Virus record (IMG/VR): IMGVR_UViG_3300050821_002864
Location: 1-22,098 of that record
Direction: 5' to 3' (one strand)
Length of the DNA: 22,098 nt
Source of the DNA: a virus
Shown here: one piece after another, positions 2,684-18,846 of the stretch
How positions within the stretch are numbered: position 1 is the first letter of the stretch
How the letters are laid out: every line of letters begins with the position of its first letter
The notes under the pieces: model-generated
The model's database searches: none
What the model was told of the DNA's origin: nothing
What the model saw: only the letters and a program-made list of their open reading frames with translations
Position numbers and translations under genes: made by a program

Positions 2684-2865
2684 CCGAAAAAGTCCTCCGC
2701 TTCGGCTGGGTTAATCTTGTGTTCGATCTGCAGCAGCTTGGCCCCGTTGGCGACCGCAGCATTGATATCGCGCTTGGTCGCTTTGCTGTCGGTAATCACA
2801 GCCCTGACCGCCGCCTTGAGGTCGGCCAGGAAGTCGTCTGCCTTGGGTTTCCGGGGCTTGGTCAT
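2680..2865 (-). CDS. Small Lys-rich helical protein, 61 aa
   Basis: A compact all-helical product with a basic start (MTKPRKPKADDF), an amphipathic middle (LADLKAAVRAVITDSKATKR) and an acidic end (PAEAEDFFG). It is coupled on both sides by ATGA overlaps, which supports expression. I do not recognise a family and see no membrane segment or Cys. It sits between the HTH-carrying virion-type protein and the two-helix membrane protein. It could bind DNA or a partner protein; nothing in the sequence decides this. Confidence 0.75.
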   Translation of the reverse strand: MTKPRKPKADDFLADLKAAVRAVITDSKATKRDINAAVANGAKLLQIEHKINPAEAEDFFG

Positions 2866-3575
2866 TTGTCCTTCACGGAAAACAGCTTCAGGAACTGCTG
2901 CAGCTCGGCGGGGTTGATGTCTTCCGCTGGCGCTGCGGGCAGTTCAAACCTCGGCAGCGATAGATCGGTTGTTGTAGATAAAGATTTGTCCCACTCAGAC
3001 GGCGGACGCACGCGTTGCGACGCCATCTTTGCTTTTATTCTCCCGTGCAATATGCCTTTAATTTGGTCTACTGAGAGTCCCGTCTTTTCAGATATCTCAC
3101 CCTGCGTGTGCCCTAGCTTTCTGAGTTCATCAATCCTCTGCACTGTCTCTGCTGAGTGAGTCTTTGGTCGACCACCTTTGTATATCCCAGGTGATTCCAC
3201 GCCGTAGAGCTTAGAAGCTCTGGTTAGATTCTGGTTAGTTCCCCCTTCAAAACTTTTAAGAGTGTTGCCCTCTTCGACGTGTTTGCGAAGAGCGCCCACT
3301 CTCTCAGAGGTCCAAGTCCTGGGACTGCTTGCGCGAGTAGGTGCCAATGCCTGATTCCCCCACTTCAATATCCCCAGCCCGGGCGCGGCAGCGAAATTGT
3401 CCGGGTTCTGCAATGCCCGGCCGACGAAATTATTCGGCAGCCCAAGAGCTCTTTGCATGCCGCCGCTGGCGAAATTCGCCGCAGAACCGACAATCGGAGG
3501 AACCGGATTCGGCCCTTCCGGCTGGTGCGTCATAGCCAGCGCATCATCCGAACCTATGGCAAGCGCGTCGCTCAT
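2862..3575 (-). CDS. DALA-motif virion-type protein with tandem helix-turn-helix region
   Basis: 237 aa. It begins with two copies of the short motif shared with its neighbours (MSDALAIGSDDALAM). A Gly/Ala/Asn-rich part follows to about residue 85. Residues about 87-125 start TWTSERVGALRKHVEEGNTL and resemble the WT-x-E-R-V opening of GcrA-type DNA-binding regions. Residues about 140-180 (ETVQRIDELRKLGHTQGEIS, then EKTGLSVDQIKGILHG) are a clear resolvase-like or sigma-4-like helix-turn-helix. The C-terminal 50 residues are Pro-rich, ending FLKLFSVKDK. DNA for the HTH part is markedly poorer in GC (about 49% over 3061-3300 by hand count) than its surroundings, suggesting an acquired module. 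The start is the ATGA overlap with the upstream gene. It may be an internal protein that binds phage or host DNA after ejection; this is inference. Confidence 0.8.
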   Translation of the reverse strand: MSDALAIGSDDALAMTHQPEGPNPVPPIVGSAANFASGGMQRALGLPNNFVGRALQNPDNFAAAPGLGILKWGNQALAPTRASSPRTWTSERVGALRKHVEEGNTLKSFEGGTNQNLTRASKLYGVESPGIYKGGRPKTHSAETVQRIDELRKLGHTQGEISEKTGLSVDQIKGILHGRIKAKMASQRVRPPSEWDKSLSTTTDLSLPRFELPAAPAEDINPAELQQFLKLFSVKDK

Positions 3576-5260
3576 TGCGCCAGCGCGTCCTCATCATCGC
3601 GCGCCGCCAGCGGGTCGCCCACAATGCCGCCGCGCACCAGGGGAATGGTCGCCTGCGGTATCGCTTGTTGAATCGGCACCACGCGGCGCTCTTTCAACCG
3701 CGCCTGCCCGCGAGGTGAGTTGGCTATATTCCCGGCAACGCCCTTGGCCTGACCGTACAATGTCGTTGCCTGTGCGCGCTCCGTCGTGCCTGAACTTCTC
3801 CCCAGAGGAGTCAGCACCTTGACACCGGCACGCGCCAGCTCCTGAAGCCCGCCACCGCGACCGGCTGCATACGCCAACTTAGCATCAGTCGTGCCAGTGA
3901 GAGCCTGTCTGAGCTTTGCCGGCGATAGCGTACCTTCCGCCGCCGCCTCCCCAGCACCGGAGACCGACTTTTTGAGAACAATTAAATTGTACCACTGACG
4001 ACGGGCTTCTTTCAGATCCTGTTGGGCTTGCGCCAGCTCAATAGCCCTCGCCTGCGCTGGCCCCCCAGGCCTCCCGCGCGAAAACGCATTTTTTACAGCC
4101 CTATCAACACCGCGCTCCATCGCATCGTCGAGCGCCCCACGAATACGTGTCGCGTAATAGGCTACATTCGGATCAGGATCATCCATGGCACGCTGCAGCG
4201 GCGTGCCCTTTCGCGTTGCTGCCTGGTAATTTTTCCCAGGCATGACGCCGCGGCCACTGGCCCGCGTTATAAATCCATTGTTGATAGCGGCTGCTTGCGC
4301 CGCAATACGATCGGTTATTTGGGCTGGAAGCCCTTCAGCAAAAGCATCTTGAACGATTTTCGCCAATTCATTGCCGAGCGCCTGATCATAATTCACCGGC
4401 AATCGCTGAGCTGAGCTTTCAAACGTATTCCCTAACCGCTGTTCGACTCGCTGAAATACGTCAGGCTCGAGAAGTTCTCCGGGCTGAAGATGTTCCCCCA
4501 CCCCCTCTAGCGCACCGCTCCTCGTATAAGCATCAGAAACAGCCTGATTATTCCGGGATGCCGATCCGCTCACGGATAAATCGCCCAACTCTTCCAAATG
4601 CTCAAGGGTGCGGCTGCCGGTGACTTTACTTGCAGTCGGCTCGATGCCGCGGTCGCGCAATTGCTGCACGAAGGGTGCCCTGCGAGGCGGTATATTTGGC
4701 ACACGAGGCGACTGCGCCGCAGCGGCAGCGCCGGGCAGTCCGCCGGCCACCCCACCGATGAGGCGGCCCACGCCGCTGCCCGTCAGTTCCTCGCCAGCCT
4801 GCGCGCCTGCGCCGCTGAGCGCCGCCGATCCTATCTTCAGCGGCAGCCCTCCCGGCCCGACATAGCTTGCCGGGTTGCCGACTGCCTCGCCGATCGATGC
4901 GCCATATCGGCCCGCCGTTGTCTCCGGCTCGTGCATCTTGCCGGTGACATTCTTCTCCACAATGCCCATCGACTCTTCTTGGCCCGGCACGCCCTCCACG
5001 CCCTGCAATGTCGCCTCTGCCTGCCCCGAGGAGGACATTGCCGAGATGATCCCAGACACGACGCCGCGCGGAAAGGAGTGAAAGAAATCGACCAGCGATG
5101 AGGGTTCGGGTTTCTCCGTGGGTTCCTTAGTTTCGAACCACTCGGGATGGGACTGCTTGACTTCGCCGAACTTGGCCTGCGCATCATCCAGCGATGCGCC
5201 TTCCGGCCCATGCACCGTGAACTTGCGGCCGTCCGGACTGGTGAAGATGAAATCCGTCAT
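3572..5260 (-). CDS. Large internal virion / DNA-ejection protein candidate, 562 aa
   Basis: The product opens with a small beta-type head domain (MTDFIFTSPDGRKFTVHGPE, then GASLDDAQAKF), a start I associate with large internal or putative injection proteins of phages. Residues about 130-185 are Gly/Ala-rich and weakly hydrophobic (IGSAALSGAGAQAGEEL, GVGRLIGGVAGGLPGAAAAA) and could insert in or lie on a membrane. The remainder is mostly helical and charged, ending DEDALAQ, a copy of the motif common to its neighbours. It is coupled by ATGA on both sides. With no tape-measure gene in the window and a podovirus-type order, an ejected channel or DNA-transfer protein (in the role of P22 gp16/gp20) is the likeliest job. 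No lysozyme or peptidase motif is evident. Confidence 0.8.
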   Translation of the reverse strand: MTDFIFTSPDGRKFTVHGPEGASLDDAQAKFGEVKQSHPEWFETKEPTEKPEPSSLVDFFHSFPRGVVSGIISAMSSSGQAEATLQGVEGVPGQEESMGIVEKNVTGKMHEPETTAGRYGASIGEAVGNPASYVGPGGLPLKIGSAALSGAGAQAGEELTGSGVGRLIGGVAGGLPGAAAAAQSPRVPNIPPRRAPFVQQLRDRGIEPTASKVTGSRTLEHLEELGDLSVSGSASRNNQAVSDAYTRSGALEGVGEHLQPGELLEPDVFQRVEQRLGNTFESSAQRLPVNYDQALGNELAKIVQDAFAEGLPAQITDRIAAQAAAINNGFITRASGRGVMPGKNYQAATRKGTPLQRAMDDPDPNVAYYATRIRGALDDAMERGVDRAVKNAFSRGRPGGPAQARAIELAQAQQDLKEARRQWYNLIVLKKSVSGAGEAAAEGTLSPAKLRQALTGTTDAKLAYAAGRGGGLQELARAGVKVLTPLGRSSGTTERAQATTLYGQAKGVAGNIANSPRGQARLKERRVVPIQQAIPQATIPLVRGGIVGDPLAARDDEDALAQ

Positions 5261-6690
5261 GGCCCCATCTCGACAGTCCAGCCGTCGCCGACGTCACGCG
5301 ACTGCTTCGGTCCTGATGCGCCCTGTGCCCCGCTGAGCGGTTTCTGGCCCTTCGGAACAAACGCGCCCGGCACCTCGGGGACCGTCATCGGCGTTCCGGC
5401 GCGCTGCTCTTGCGTCGCTTTGAATTCGCGCTGAATCTCCCGCACCATCTGGTTCAGTATCGTGCGGTAGGCTTGCGGGCTCTTGGCTGTGCTCAAGTTT
5501 TCAAGCGCACGCCGCTGAAGGTCGACGTCAAGCACGCCGGTCGGCTTCATCGCCCTCGCCCACAATTCAGCCAAGGCAAGGTTTTGAGTGTCGAACGCCG
5601 CAATAGGCGGATTGCTTACCCCTCTCCGTACGGCTTGAATATACTCATTGAGTTTTACCCAGGAGCCGCGCGGCACGGCGTCCGAAGCCGCGATAGCATC
5701 CGGCACAAGTGACGCAAGCTTACGCGAGATGTTTTCCATCTGAGCATTACGAGTGCCGACACTGCGCTCGCCGGACACATCGCCCTGATAGCGCGGCGCG
5801 CTGTAGTCGGGGTTGAGTTCCATCACGCGGGCCATTGTTTGACGATCGAGAGGCTGGCGCGGATTAGTGATTGGCGGCAGCTTGTATTCCGCAATCGCTT
5901 GCGCGCGGGACTCTATCGCCGCTTCTTGACCCTGCCCCTCCGTGAACCGATTGTGCCGCTCCGTCTCATCCTGCCGCCGCTGGTCGAGCTTCAGTCTCTC
6001 CTCAGACTGCCGCCACTGCTGGTGTTGCTGAAGGAGCTGGGCACTGGTTCGCTCCGTCTCCGTTCCCAACCTGGCTCGCTGCTCCAGCAGCCGGCCGAGC
6101 GTCTCGAAGTCGTGTTGCTGCGCCGCCTGCATGACGGCGCGGTCGTCGTACTTCGCGGCCGTCAACTGCAGCTCCATCGCCTTCTGCTCAAGCGCAAGCT
6201 TCCGGCTTTCCAGGGTGGCCTTGTACTGGTCTAGCGAGGCCTGGTTGGTTTCCAGGATGCGCTTGTTCTCGGCGTTCCACTGCTTCAAGTTCTCCTCGAA
6301 CTTGTCCTTCCGCCCCTCCTGGTAGCCGTTCATGGCGCCCGTCATGGCGGCGAGCGCGTTGGTGGCGTGATTGCGCGTCAGGCCGCCCGCTATGGCGCCG
6401 AGCACCCCGACGGTCGCCAGCCATACCTCATCGGCCGCCTGTTCCTTGGGCTGCCCGGGCACTGGCGGGGGCTTCTGCATCTGCGGCGCCTGCGGCAGCG
6501 GCTGGCGCACCTCACGGATTTGACTCTGCCGAACCGGCTCCAGCGCGGTCTCGCGCTCCTGCAGCGTCTTGTTGCGCGCTCCCATCGAGCCGCGGATATC
6601 CTCAATGTTGCGGTCGATACCGGACAGGTCCGGCGGCGCCGGCATCGCCAGCGCGTCGGACGGAAGGGCGAGGGCGTCGGCTTCAGGCAT
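5257..6690 (-). CDS. Coiled-coil internal virion protein candidate, 477 aa
   Basis: It starts MPEADALALPSDALAMPAPP, two copies of the shared DALA motif. A Pro/Gln-rich linker (residues 60-85) and a hydrophobic helix at about 89-107 (VWLATVGVLGAIAGGL) follow. A long Gln/Glu/Arg/Lys coiled coil runs from about 125 to 270. The C-terminal third is globular and ends DGWTVEMGP. I chose ATG 6690 because AAAGGA lies 6 bases upstream and the reading is protein-like from there; an ATG at 6744 would add residues that are the upstream gene in another frame. Length, coiled coil and position match internal head proteins delivered with the genome. No enzymatic motif seen. Confidence 0.8.
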   Translation of the reverse strand: MPEADALALPSDALAMPAPPDLSGIDRNIEDIRGSMGARNKTLQERETALEPVRQSQIREVRQPLPQAPQMQKPPPVPGQPKEQAADEVWLATVGVLGAIAGGLTRNHATNALAAMTGAMNGYQEGRKDKFEENLKQWNAENKRILETNQASLDQYKATLESRKLALEQKAMELQLTAAKYDDRAVMQAAQQHDFETLGRLLEQRARLGTETERTSAQLLQQHQQWRQSEERLKLDQRRQDETERHNRFTEGQGQEAAIESRAQAIAEYKLPPITNPRQPLDRQTMARVMELNPDYSAPRYQGDVSGERSVGTRNAQMENISRKLASLVPDAIAASDAVPRGSWVKLNEYIQAVRRGVSNPPIAAFDTQNLALAELWARAMKPTGVLDVDLQRRALENLSTAKSPQAYRTILNQMVREIQREFKATQEQRAGTPMTVPEVPGAFVPKGQKPLSGAQGASGPKQSRDVGDGWTVEMGP

Positions 6691-6886
6691 CGCGAATCCT
6701 TTCGATCGAGATGCGTGGGATTGACGATTGTTTGGTGTGCACAATCATAATAATTGCGAGCCTACCAAGGATCAGGCCGCAACAACTCGCCTCATCGTGA
6801 GGGTCAGAAAAAAATGGATAAATACCGCACGCCGACAAAGCGCGCGTTACCAGGTTGTGCTTATATTCTCTGAAATCCACGTCCAT
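6683..6886 (-). CDS. Small Cys-containing hydrophobic protein, 67 aa, uncertain
   Basis: An ORF fits exactly between two certain genes. ATG 6886 lies one base after the upstream TGA, with GAAGG about 9 bases before it, and the stop overlaps the next start by 8 bases. It contains a short hydrophobic run (ASCCGLILGRLAIIMIVHT), three Cys and a basic end. Base composition is unlike the flanks: 47% GC over 6741-6840 by hand count, including a run of seven A on the plus strand. It could be a small membrane protein. Alternatively the stretch is not coding and carries control elements. Spacing and ribosome site favour a gene; composition and lack of a known family argue for caution. Confidence 0.45.
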   Translation of the reverse strand: MDVDFREYKHNLVTRALSACGIYPFFSDPHDEASCCGLILGRLAIIMIVHTKQSSIPRISIERIRDA

Positions 6887-6887
6887 A

Positions 6888-7928
6888 TCATGCCGCCTTC
6901 AACGTGATGGTATTGCCGCCGCCGGCCACTCGGCCGAACGCCGCAGTAGCGTTGACAAGCGTATTGGTGAAGTTCTGGTCGGCATTCATCTGCATCTGCG
7001 CGATCTGGATCAGCTGGGCATCGCCCGCAAGCGAGTTCTGGATGTTCTGCTGAATCATCTGCTGCGTGGCGGCTGTGGTCTGCTGATCGATCTGCGCCTC
7101 GATCTGGGGCCAGCGGCTATCCTTCGATATGTCTTTCACCCCCTGGTTATACAGCACCTGCCGCCACTGGTTGGTGAGGTCTTGCTTCATCTGGGCGACG
7201 GTGGCCGCCTGGGCAGGATTGAGGTTCGACCCCTGGCTCGCCAGCGCAGACGCATTGGCCTGCGCGGGGTCGATCTGGCCTGGCAACGGGGGTTGCCCGC
7301 GGCCGAGCGCCAGCGCGAGCGGGGCGGCCCCAAGCGCGAGCTTTGTCCATGGCGAGCTCATGGTGTCGCCGAGCGTCTTTGTCAGGCCGCCACCGCTGTC
7401 GGCTGAAGCATTCGCGCCAGCGCCCGTCAAACCCGACCATTCTTCGCCTTGGGAAAATGACGGCGCCGCCGCCGTATCGCCCACGCCCCCTGCCGGGCCG
7501 AATGCCGTATCGATCGCCGAAAGTCCGGGGTCTGAGGCGAACGCGCCCCCGGTGAACGCATCTGCGGATCCGGCGAGCGCATCCCCGGCGAACGCGCTGA
7601 GGCCGCCTGCGCCGCTAGCCAGCGCATCGACGCCCCCAAGGCCGAGGGCAGCATCAGCCGAATTTGCCGCGAACAGCCCCGTGTCAAACGCGCCAAAGGC
7701 GGCATCGGCCGCGCCAAGATCGGCCGCGCCTAACGCCGCATCGGCCCCGAGCGCCGCGCCACCCCCACCAATAATCTCCGGTGCCAGGAACGGGGCGGCG
7801 ACCAAGAGTGCGGCGGCCCCCGTTTCAATCATGTCAGCCGGGTGATTGATGAACGACGACGGCGCGTGCGCGAGGTCGTTGCCCAGGTTTCCGAAGTTTC
7901 CTTCAAACAAATCGCTGAAGAAACTCAT
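6888..7928 (-). CDS. Internal virion / ejection protein candidate, 346 aa
   Basis: It begins MSFFSDLFEGNFGNLGNDL and has a hydrophobic Ala/Gly segment at about residues 36-60. A long Ala/Gly/Asp low-complexity region follows, holding two shared motifs (VDALASG and GDALAGS). The C-terminal 120 residues are a Gln/Asn/Ala helix bundle (PAQAATVAQMKQDLTNQW, SRWPQIEAQIDQQTTAATQQ). This layout, a low-complexity head and a helical Gln-rich tail, is typical of internal head proteins of short-tailed phages. ATG 7928 is chosen because it overlaps the upstream stop as ATGA; an ATG at 7982 would run back into the upstream gene. The WPQI sequence recurs near the C-terminus of the upstream gene's product, hinting at a shared domain. 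Confidence 0.8.
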   Translation of the reverse strand: MSFFSDLFEGNFGNLGNDLAHAPSSFINHPADMIETGAAALLVAAPFLAPEIIGGGGAALGADAALGAADLGAADAAFGAFDTGLFAANSADAALGLGGVDALASGAGGLSAFAGDALAGSADAFTGGAFASDPGLSAIDTAFGPAGGVGDTAAAPSFSQGEEWSGLTGAGANASADSGGGLTKTLGDTMSSPWTKLALGAAPLALALGRGQPPLPGQIDPAQANASALASQGSNLNPAQAATVAQMKQDLTNQWRQVLYNQGVKDISKDSRWPQIEAQIDQQTTAATQQMIQQNIQNSLAGDAQLIQIAQMQMNADQNFTNTLVNATAAFGRVAGGGNTITLKAA

Positions 7929-9499
7929 GCCGCGGCTCCTGGCTGCTGCCGTTGCACAATGGCGGACAGTATCTGCGGCCACTGCGGCAGGGTCGCGGGG
8001 TCAATGCCGAACCGCGCAAAAATACCCTGCCGTATCTGGTTGATCGCATCTTCGTTAAGACCCCCAACCGCCTCGCCAAAGTTTGCCCCACCTCCGGGTG
8101 CCCCTCCGAGCGCTAAGGCATCCGACACAAAACCCGGAGGGGCTCCCGCCGTGCCGCCGAGATTGCCGGCAAAGTTTCCGAGTTGGGAAGCGAAGTTGCC
8201 GCCACCGACTGCGCCTGTAGCAGCGGCCAGGGCCTGGTCGGGTGTGAGGTTGGTTGTCCCGGCGCCACCGCCACCGCCTGCGCCGGGCACTCCCTGATCG
8301 AAGGGGGCTGCTACGGTGCCCGGCACCCCACCGGGCGCCAGCGCATCCACCACGCTGCCGTCCGCCTCCTGGATGCCGCCGGCCGCACCGGGCGAGGCAA
8401 ACGACAGCGTCTCAAGAGGCGAGCCGCCAAAGCGAACGCCACCGCCGTCGCCAGACACGCCGCCCTGAAACCCTCCGGTGTCGAAATTGGTCTGGCCAGG
8501 CTGTTGGCCGGCCTGATCTGTGAAAGTTATGTTGCCCCCTCCCATTCTTCCCTGATCTTCGGGCGATGGCTGGGCGCTGGTACTGAGAACGCTCGTGGTT
8601 CCCGGCCCTACAGGTCCGCCGGGGTTGGTTCCAAAGGGGCTGTCAAACAGCCCGGCGATCGGGTCCGCCAGATCGCCCCTTCCGGGGTTTGCAAGCTGTT
8701 CAAGGTCTTGTGGTGTCGCTTGCGGCGCGCCGGGGGCGAGCGCATCCGGTCCCACGCCAGGAGTACCTGGACTCGTCATCGCAATGCCGTGGCCACCAAA
8801 TTCATCACCTTGCGGGCCGGTAGCGCCGAACATCCCGCCACCAAAGCCGCCGCTGAAACCCGTGCCCATAGTCGCGGTTTGCCCGGTGATGCCAGTCGTG
8901 GCGCCAGACATATCGACCCCAGCCCCACCCGGGCCAAAACTGCCGACATCATTTATTCCGAGCGCGTCGGCCAGCCCACCACCGGGGCCGAGAGCATCAC
9001 CACCTGCGCCAGCGCCGCTGAATCCACCCGCCCCGCCAAAACCGCCCGTCCCGCCAAAACCAGGCCCGGCCCCAGCAGCCTCCCCGGTTACCCCAGCCGC
9101 AGCCCCGGACTGGTCAGTGGCGCCAGCTCCAAACCCGCCGCCCGCCGCACCGCCAAAACCAGCCGCGCCGCCAAATCCGGCAGCCTCTCCGCCGGCTCCA
9201 AACCCCTCCCCGGTCGTTGCCGCCGCGCCGGTAACGCCCGCGGTGGCCCCTGACTGGTCCGTTGCGCCAGCCCCGAACCCGCCGCCAGTGCCGCTATCCG
9301 GCCCCACGCCCTCGCCGCCAGTGCCGCCCAGCCCGCCGACACCGCCTCCCGCGTCGCCAATTCCACCGATGCCACCACTCTCGCCTGTCGCTGCAGCATC
9401 CCCACCGCCACCACCATCCCCGCCGCCGCCATCGCCCCCGCCGCCTCCGAGGACCATGCGCCAGGACCAGTCAGCCGTATCGTGCATAAGCTCGCTCAC
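7925..9499 (-). CDS. Gly-rich repetitive virion protein, about 524 aa
   Basis: An N-terminal stretch (ELMHDTADWSWRMVL) is followed by about 400 residues dominated by Gly with Ala, Asp, Phe and Thr. A block reading GAGATDQSGATAGVTG appears twice, with a diverged third copy (GVDMSGATTGITG). Several DALAPG/DALALGG motifs occur from the middle to the C-terminal part. The C-terminal 55 residues are ordered (EDAINQIRQGIFARFGIDP, then LPQWPQILSAIVQRQQPG). I chose GTG 9499: AAGGA lies 8 bases upstream and the gene then begins one base after the preceding TGA. ATG 9487 is the alternative. It is flexible and structural rather than enzymatic, likely an internal or fibre-like component. A Pro-rich plus-strand frame over the same DNA is its antisense shadow. 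Confidence 0.75.
   Translation of the reverse strand: MSELMHDTADWSWRMVLGGGGGDGGGGDGGGGGDAAATGESGGIGGIGDAGGGVGGLGGTGGEGVGPDSGTGGGFGAGATDQSGATAGVTGAAATTGEGFGAGGEAAGFGGAAGFGGAAGGGFGAGATDQSGAAAGVTGEAAGAGPGFGGTGGFGGAGGFSGAGAGGDALGPGGGLADALGINDVGSFGPGGAGVDMSGATTGITGQTATMGTGFSGGFGGGMFGATGPQGDEFGGHGIAMTSPGTPGVGPDALAPGAPQATPQDLEQLANPGRGDLADPIAGLFDSPFGTNPGGPVGPGTTSVLSTSAQPSPEDQGRMGGGNITFTDQAGQQPGQTNFDTGGFQGGVSGDGGGVRFGGSPLETLSFASPGAAGGIQEADGSVVDALAPGGVPGTVAAPFDQGVPGAGGGGGAGTTNLTPDQALAAATGAVGGGNFASQLGNFAGNLGGTAGAPPGFVSDALALGGAPGGGANFGEAVGGLNEDAINQIRQGIFARFGIDPATLPQWPQILSAIVQRQQPGAAA
8865..9290 (-). repeat. Internal amino-acid repeat block in the Gly-rich protein
   Basis: Three imperfect copies of a unit reading roughly G-x-x-x-T/M-x-x-SGA-x-x-G-x-TG lie at about 9231-9285, 9086-9137 and 8885-8925. 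They are separated by GFGG-type spacers. The first two copies are nearly identical in protein; the third has diverged. This suggests growth by tandem duplication. Confidence 0.6.
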
Positions 9500-9500
9500 G

Positions 9501-9980
9501 TCAGAGTTCCTTGATGAAAACGGTTTCCCACGGAACATAGCCCAGATCCCGCATGCTCTCATCATGCGGGTGCGCGGTCTTGAGCCGGCCATAGGCGTAC
9601 CGGACGCCTGCCTTGCGCAGTTCTTCCAGCGCGACCTCGCGCAGACGGCGGCCGATGCCGAGCTTTCTCAAGGCAGGTTCCACATACCACGCATCATCCT
9701 GCGCCACTCGCGCGTTGAAGTGCAGGTCACGGTGCCAAAAGTGGCTTGAGTAGCCCTGCACAACATCACCCGTATCACGCACCGTGATGTAGACTAAGCG
9801 CCCCTCGCGCTGCATTTGAAGATAGCGAGGGATATCGAGGTCAGAAGGAAAGCCGCGCAATTCCACACCGTGCGCATCGAACATCCCCTTTTGGCGCAAC
9901 CAATCCCACGCATCGGGGTTGAAGTCCTCGCGCTGGTACGTGAGGTCGATAGTCCGATAGGTGGTCAATTCGTTCATCAT
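9501..9980 (-). CDS. GNAT-fold acetyltransferase-like protein, 159 aa
   Basis: It has the GNAT pattern: a strand pair (RLVYITVRDTGDVVQGYSS) and then motif A at about residues 99-117 (WYVEPALRKLGIGRRLREVA), with the R/Q-x-x-G-x-G acetyl-CoA loop as RKLGIG. Helix EELRKAGVRYAY follows, and a late LGYVPWETVFIKEL strand typical of the fold's end. The start is ATG 9980, overlapping the upstream TGA. T7 gp13, an internal virion protein, is placed in the same fold superfamily to my knowledge, so a virion role without catalysis is as possible as acetylation of a host or phage protein. The location just before the block of large internal proteins fits that. Substrate unknown. Confidence 0.85.
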   Translation of the reverse strand: MMNELTTYRTIDLTYQREDFNPDAWDWLRQKGMFDAHGVELRGFPSDLDIPRYLQMQREGRLVYITVRDTGDVVQGYSSHFWHRDLHFNARVAQDDAWYVEPALRKLGIGRRLREVALEELRKAGVRYAYGRLKTAHPHDESMRDLGYVPWETVFIKEL

Positions 9981-10330
9981 GCGACTCCGAATGCCTGATC
10001 CAGCAAGGCGTGCTCGATGTTGTGCGTGTCCTGCCACGAATAGAAATACCGCGGATCGTCAAAGTCGAGGTCGGCCAGGTTGGCCCCCGTGACGCCGGCG
10101 ATCGGCCGGAGCAGCTCGTGCCAGTTCTCATGAGCGTTGAGCCAGAACCGGATTTCCTGCCGGTTGCCACCAAAATACATGATCGGGAATTCCGGCAGCA
10201 CGACTGCGGGCGTTCTTTTGGCGAGCACCGCGTTGTAGCGCAGGTGCTGGCGGAAGTGGCCGTCCGACCACGCGCCGAGCCCGGCGACGTCGCCATAGAC
10301 GACGGTGTTGGGCTGGAACTCTGTGGTCAT
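9977..10330 (-). CDS. Conserved-looking unknown protein, 117 aa
   Basis: An acidic, aromatic-rich globular protein with His/Trp-containing segments (SDGHFRQHLRYNAVL, INPUT-free HENWHELLRP core, YFYSWQDTHNIEHALLDQAF). No signal peptide, membrane helix or recognisable catalytic motif is present. ATG 10330 overlaps the upstream stop as ATGA, and the next gene (GNAT-fold) overlaps its stop the same way, so the two are probably made together. An ATG further upstream (10402) would run into the previous gene. I do not recognise the family. Pairing with the GNAT gene suggests a shared function. Confidence 0.75.
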   Translation of the reverse strand: MTTEFQPNTVVYGDVAGLGAWSDGHFRQHLRYNAVLAKRTPAVVLPEFPIMYFGGNRQEIRFWLNAHENWHELLRPIAGVTGANLADLDFDDPRYFYSWQDTHNIEHALLDQAFGVA

Positions 10331-18276: not shown

Positions 18277-18846
18277 TCAGCGCCGAAAACCCGGCGACAG
18301 GCTCTTGTTCTTGAATTCCGTGATGACGTTGTAGGCGGCGTTGAGCGAGTGCGTGCGCGGATCGGCGGCGAAGGACTTGAAGTCCATTTGCTTGCCGTCC
18401 TTGCCGGCGACGGTCGGGAATTCCCACGTCGCACCCGGCCGCTCGCTCGGCGATGGCGGCTGTACGGACGGGTCCGTTTCGCCGCTCCTGTGGGCATAGA
18501 CGATGGCGGCAGACTCAAGGTCGCTGGTTCCGAGTCGGGCGGCCTCCGCCTCGATGGCCTCCATGCGCTTTTCGTCGTAGCGCTCGGCGAGCTTGGCGCG
18601 CTGCTCGTCCGCCTTATCCTTGGCGGCCTTGGCCCCCTTGAGGTCGAGCTTCTCCTCAATTTCGGTGCGGAAGGCTTCGAGCTTGTCGACCTGGTCGACG
18701 TCGGCGAAGGAGCGTGCGGCGCGCTGCGGGTCGATCTTCTTGACCAGCTTGGCGAGGTCTTTGCGGGTTTCGGGATTGTGGCCGAGGTTATACGCGAGCG
18801 TCGCGAGATCGGCCTGCTGCTGGGGGGTGAGACGCGGGGCGGCCAT
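18277..18846 (-). CDS. Capsid scaffolding protein candidate, 189 aa
   Basis: A charged, Ala/Lys/Glu/Asp-rich helical protein with a long coiled-coil centre (AFRTEIEEKLDLKGAKAAKD, KADEQRAKLAERYDEKRMEA). The tail part is looser (PSVQPPSPSERPGATWEFP) and the end basic (KNKSLSPGFRR). Gene order (just before the coat), size and composition are typical of internal scaffolds, which are rarely alike in sequence. ATG 18846 overlaps the stop of the 45-codon gene before it (TGATG). No maturation protease is seen in the window, so scaffold exit without cleavage, as in P22, is plausible. Confidence 0.75.
   Translation of the reverse strand: MAAPRLTPQQQADLATLAYNLGHNPETRKDLAKLVKKIDPQRAARSFADVDQVDKLEAFRTEIEEKLDLKGAKAAKDKADEQRAKLAERYDEKRMEAIEAEAARLGTSDLESAAIVYAHRSGETDPSVQPPSPSERPGATWEFPTVAGKDGKQMDFKSFAADPRTHSLNAAYNVITEFKNKSLSPGFRR

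Follow-up and report, generated by a model that had tools for sequence, protein, structure and literature searches.

The tetrapeptide DALA recurs in five adjacent proteins of a short-tailed soil phage, and we read it as this phage's version of an undescribed short linear docking motif, which would serve as a loading tag for internal or ejected proteins by way of a common partner in the head. We put the probability of this reading at about 0.5. The phage is represented by a 22,098-base IMG/VR virus fragment, which was analysed whole and is called the window here. Its minus-strand order is portal, scaffold-like gene, major capsid gene, tail-region genes, and then five genes designated E, D, C, B and A. 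The major capsid gene gave a profile match to phrog_9953 (E 4e-28), and the scaffold-like gene (18277..18846, minus strand) to phrog_648 (E 0.002); the product of the latter is a candidate receptor for the tag. A GNAT acetyltransferase-like gene (9501-10037, minus strand; PF00583, E 7e-6), with relatives in 18 loci, lies between the tail genes and the ejection cassette. No published description of the motif was found in the literature searched, from which subscription journals were largely absent.

Ten DALA copies lie between positions 3534 and 8746 in minus-strand frames, two in A, one in B, two in C, two in D and three in E. The first-pass annotation had claimed that a recurring DALA links these five proteins, and had asked for an enrichment test against shuffled proteins of the same composition. 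Shuffling each protein at its own composition gave a mean of 0.20 DALA copies, with a maximum of 4 in 20,000 trials, so that the ten copies stand far above expectation and the recurrence is borne out. When residues were shuffled inside 20-aa blocks, the mean was 0.34 and the maximum 5 in 5,000 trials. DALA is the sole 4-mer present in at least four of the five proteins, and 4,014 aa from the other window genes contained no copy. One extra DALA is encoded on the plus strand, antisense to D. Degenerate copies, a DPLA at the C-terminus of B and two DALG in E, had been overlooked.

All the codon variants listed in the first-pass annotation are present, which supports conservation of the protein rather than of the DNA. 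A translated DNA-level repeat would be in keeping with the last copy of B and the first copy of A, which share 10 of their 12 bases and are separated by 20 bases, in different frames. Against it, the ten copies are encoded by seven distinct 12-mers, and in relatives the peptide persists although its letters vary and synonymous changes occur; such a repeat is largely refuted, and we give it almost no credence.

The copies differ in their placement along the five proteins, all of which are encoded on the minus strand. Gene A (2862..3575; 237 aa) is an orphan without relatives among the fetched loci; it has an HTH-like stretch at residues 135-181 and a paired tag at the N-terminus, with DALA at residues 3-6 (3558..3569) and 11-14 (3534..3545). 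Gene B (3572..5260; 562 aa) occupies a gp16-like position and carries DALA at residues 558-561 (3578..3589) of its C-terminus. The B C-terminus is also paired, since it ends GDPLAARDDEDALAQ, in which that copy is accompanied by the DPLA at residues 549-552 (3605..3616). Gene C (5257..6690; 477 aa) encodes an all-helical protein in a gp20-like position, with a paired tag, at residues 5-8 (6667..6678) and 12-15 (6646..6657), on a probably disordered N-terminus. Gene D (6888..7928; 346 aa), in a gp7-like position, has an Ala/Gly-rich N-terminal part and a conserved helical C-terminal domain, and its copies are at residues 101-104 (7617..7628) and 116-119 (7572..7583). Gene E (7925..9457; about 510 aa, the longest ORF running from 9592) is Gly-rich with a D-like C-terminal end; DALA is found at residues 238-241 (8735..8746), 371-374 (8336..8347) and 446-449 (8111..8122), and DALG at residues 154-157 (8987..8998) and 164-167 (8957..8968). 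The copies in D and E sit in low-complexity sequence. D and E apparently have a short C-terminal region in common (QWPQI and RWPQI; window 6888-9457, minus strand), and because BLAST labels the E of relatives as D, a duplication together with Gly-rich expansion is suggested.

We then considered whether A-E are carried in the head and ejected, as had been proposed. B alone among the five matches an ejection-protein family (the DNA ejection protein family phrog_26400 of PHROG); we regard carriage of A-E in the virion as likely. In their AF2 models C and D are helical, with low confidence in the motif-bearing N-termini, which are probably disordered. The D model, at pLDDT 61, was too poor for structure search. 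Neither a PDB sequence search nor Foldseek of the C model against the PDB gave anything usable, and among viral models only uncharacterised proteins of uncultured phages matched C at E <= 0.001. Seven B homologues in one alignment (A5) match phrog_21712, labelled 'major head protein'; this label is probably wrong, because the MCP is another gene. The N-termini of window B (3572-5260) and P22 gp16 (L155 11484-13313) both start in a manner like SPDG-x-x-F...P-x-G-x-S, a likeness of 15 columns with an hhalign E of 0.012 and low probability.

Conservation was examined in related phages, recovered by MCP, H and alignment queries. Coat-protein and downstream-gene searches yielded some 70 related contigs, 25 of them with C, from which the D-C-B regions were extracted and oriented; gene calls are simple ORF choices. 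B or C as the sole query gave no matches among viral contigs. Relatives of D or C were not found on any bacterial genome contig, and the motif-bearing relatives are metagenomic. The prediction that homologues would share the motif failed for the exact letters, DALA being mostly absent, and held strongly for a generalised form, [D/N/S]-[A/V/P]-L-[A/S/G], often in tandem. The literal DALA is the window's version of this broader motif. Outside the sister group, the C-terminus of B has DLDPLAAGFGDPLA or SKDVLSAGPLSSDDVLGYE, D and E contain internal DVLS, DILS and DLLG, and the N-terminus of C in L077, L078 and L080 has MPDVLAQDDVLSF. In the sister group, B ends with SPLASGGP, NSPLAQPGQ, SSPLAAQGQ or ASALAQPGN; either SPLAPQSPLSALG or SALAQPDQ is found in C. 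The bodies of B, the gene after C, in L077, L078 and L080 have no detectable similarity to window B, and their C-terminal paired motif is kept.

Counting in the relatives revealed the same positional preference. The pattern [DSN][APV]L[ASG] occurs at the C-terminus of 16 of 20 B proteins (1.3 expected; at most 7 in any of 2,000 shuffles) and at the N-terminus of 19 of 25 C proteins (1.4 expected, at most 6), with a weak signal in D N-termini (9/21; 2.7 expected, at most 9). The relatives that gave rise to this pattern are also those in which it was counted, a circularity mitigated by a k-mer test, a gene-family control and two later contigs. In the motif-free count of 4-mers, the B C-termini of 20 relatives gave SPLA (7) and SALA (5) at the top, with a 99% shuffle maximum of 4, and the C N-termini gave SPLA (6) first and SALA (5) joint second, with a 99% shuffle maximum of 5. 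The gene-family control made C and B stand out and D moderately so, with no enrichment in coat, portal-sized or terminase-sized families. When every ORF in 15 near-complete genomes was taken, C-terminal matches outside B were about as many as shuffling predicts. A Pro-rich small protein between portal and scaffold had SPLA in 3/7 against 0.32, a weak signal, and was not counted as tagged. The few later contigs agree by and large: L178 has a C with SPLS and a D with NPLA, and L117 has a B with SPLS and a C without the tag; homologues in L079, L082 and L101 also lack it. In a 16-protein alignment of B (16-34% identity to window B), the Leu of the motif, which is that of DPLA in the window, is one of three invariant columns.

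These counts bear on chance, that is, on Ala/Leu/Asp-rich composition together with helix N-cap preferences. S/D-P/A-L could cap helices, D and E are of low complexity and the enrichment in the D family is modest, all of which would suit such an origin. The shuffles in the window and the relatives and the genome-wide controls largely refute it where B, C and the paired tag are concerned, and we hold it to be very improbable. Since relatives keep the motif at the same places with varied letters, it is probably an address tag for docking to a common partner.

The letters themselves follow the clades. The window clade uses D-letters (DALA, DVLA, DPLA) and the sister clade S-letters (SPLA, SALA), and the coat proteins fall into two sister clades that match these flavours. 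The first letter, D/N in 5 genomes and S in 10, agrees between C and B in 15/15 (Fisher p 3e-4 when descent is ignored, the switch being a single evolutionary event). Judged from these letters, the change in C and B looks concerted. Between L078 and L080, residues 1-20 of C show zero amino-acid differences and three synonymous codons, and beyond residue 60 there are 76 amino-acid differences in 446; the tag of C is thus kept as a peptide despite synonymous changes.

Whether the paired tag occurs on other proteins was examined with a stringent pattern, two copies of [DN][APV]L[ASG] close together near a start codon, applied to 24,400 possible N-termini in all frames. It matched 11 distinct proteins and none in 20 shuffles. 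Six of the 11 are C, from the window and four relatives, and A. Three are small, mutually unrelated proteins, where 0 were expected: one beginning MADVLAIDDVLS (L032 13657-14115), located between the I and H genes, with a C-terminal domain similar to the end of Tunturiibacter phage Tunturi_3 gp25; one beginning MPADPLALPNDALSP (L066 1566-1970) adjoining a 624-aa gene, probably terminase; and one beginning MADGDPLALHDPLSPGG (L003 7516-7917) upstream of the scaffold gene. The remaining matches are a start within another gene (L068 9452) and one D-neighbour protein in L002. A second small gene of L066 (4232-4843) begins MPDDPLAPGDVL and is a possible further tagged protein. A pair on unrelated proteins is expected if the tag, and not the protein, is under common selection.

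The alternative of a processing site like that of signal peptidase had also been raised, and was weighed here for signal peptidase, a prohead protease or a host protease. It has a precedent in P22 gp7, from which a host protease removes the N-terminal 20 residues (sequence record note). The signal-peptidase and processing reading is not supported: no hydrophobic region precedes the motif, which starts at residue 3 in A and 5 in C, copies lie inside Gly/Ala-rich regions, and the residue after Leu varies among A, S and G, with S or G often there. Pairs near both termini mean that cuts would remove a few residues only, and a search of 17 records, some of them incomplete, revealed no S78 or S49 peptidase. 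We consider processing of any of these kinds improbable. A signal peptide with an A-x-A site is disfavoured by the lack of a hydrophobic segment before the motif in A and C. RTX Ca2+-binding repeats are Gly-rich nonapeptides of the form GGxGxDxLx; E offers the Gly context, but the copies in A, B and C lack these glycines, and this candidate was rejected on reading the sequences.

Docking agrees better with what was seen, namely position-specific recurrence, specificity for the ejection cassette, the probable disorder of the termini and the occurrence of the tag on small proteins that are unrelated, and the loading-tag or docking-peptide reading offered at the outset is supported. D, C and B resemble the P22 set gp7-gp20-gp16 in gene order and approximate sizes, and B matches a DNA-ejection-protein family. 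The P22 proteins measure about 230, 470 and 610 aa and follow the tail genes; D, C and B of the S clade measure 212-267, 460-590 and 450-674 aa, and D of the window clade is longer than that of the S clade. C and D have no detectable homology to P22 gp20 and gp7. P22 gp7, gp20 and gp16 do not carry the motif and have no 4-mer common to all three, so the tag belongs to this phage group and is no general podovirus rule.

The P22 ejection proteins require scaffold to enter the procapsid; N-terminal fragments are sufficient, and in gp7 and gp20 entry is ascribed to the N-terminal portion (PMC8402733). A structure from 2025 places a likely ejection-protein dome on scaffold columns (PMC12005531). 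A capsid-loading tag for internal and accessory proteins, with the scaffold as its most likely receptor, is therefore the most economical reading. The motif, usually paired with few residues between, sits on probably flexible termini (N-terminal in C and A, C-terminal in B) and within Gly/Ala-rich stretches of D and E. It would bind a single partner shared by these proteins in the assembling head, most likely the scaffolding protein; ejection proteins and accessory cargo would in this way be loaded into the procapsid, released on scaffold exit, and ride in the virion. Small genes seem to gain the tag or to evolve it, and could so become cargo.

Docking might instead act later, the tag keeping ejection proteins attached to one another or to the portal barrel in the virion, or assembling a trans-envelope channel after ejection. 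The motif is present on all three ejection-cassette proteins, and P22 ejection proteins cluster near the portal barrel (PMC8402733), as such a role would have it. The pair is also found on small unrelated proteins encoded at a distance from the cassette, among them the HTH-like A, and general cargo therefore fits better than a channel part; we regard later-acting docking as possible but doubtful. Sticker-and-spacer self-association, in which the DxLx-studded, Gly/Ala-rich D and E would form one internal body into which the tags draw A, B and C through tag-tag contacts, is suggested by the five copies in E, two in D and pairs elsewhere. B and C are tagged in the sister clade despite a short D and no recognisable E, and we find this explanation unlikely.

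The loading tag would most likely work like the capsid-targeting sequence (CTS) of T4, where a short peptide is all that the diverse internal proteins have in common; it targets them into the scaffolding core, and ten N-terminal residues of IPIII suffice for targeting (PMC3012670, PMC8402733). In both cases a short sequence is common to otherwise diverse proteins, here putatively internal. The phage motif differs in having four residues, other letters and usually a pair, and in being N-terminal in C and A, C-terminal in B and internal in D and E, where the CTS is N-terminal. It is also present on the candidate ejection-channel proteins themselves, and no S78 or S49 prohead peptidase accompanies it in the records searched. 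Encapsulin cargo-loading peptides, which are short and C-terminal, dock cargo inside an HK97-fold shell; the likeness is that of a short docking peptide, in an unrelated system, whereas the phage motif is found at both termini and on several proteins. Phage polyvalent proteins bring virion-carried accessory domains that are predicted to be injected, and a common packaging tag is not mentioned in the portions of that account considered here (PMC5512222). Our phages differ in that a candidate tag for such cargo is visible.

Even for P22, where scaffold is required, the literature searched describes no motif that recruits ejection proteins into the procapsid. A visible, transferable tag opens the question of such recruitment in podoviruses to peptide binding and fusion loading, and could act as a cargo-loading handle. 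It also gives a rule by which virion-carried, injected proteins could be found from sequence in metagenomic phages. We tentatively suggest, at somewhat less than even odds, that in this lineage of short-tailed soil phages the paired motif is read by one head-assembly protein, and that any protein gaining it is loaded and ejected into the host. If this is true, injected proteins, including the HTH-like A, would be predictable from sequence alone, and the letters of the tag would co-evolve with its receptor.
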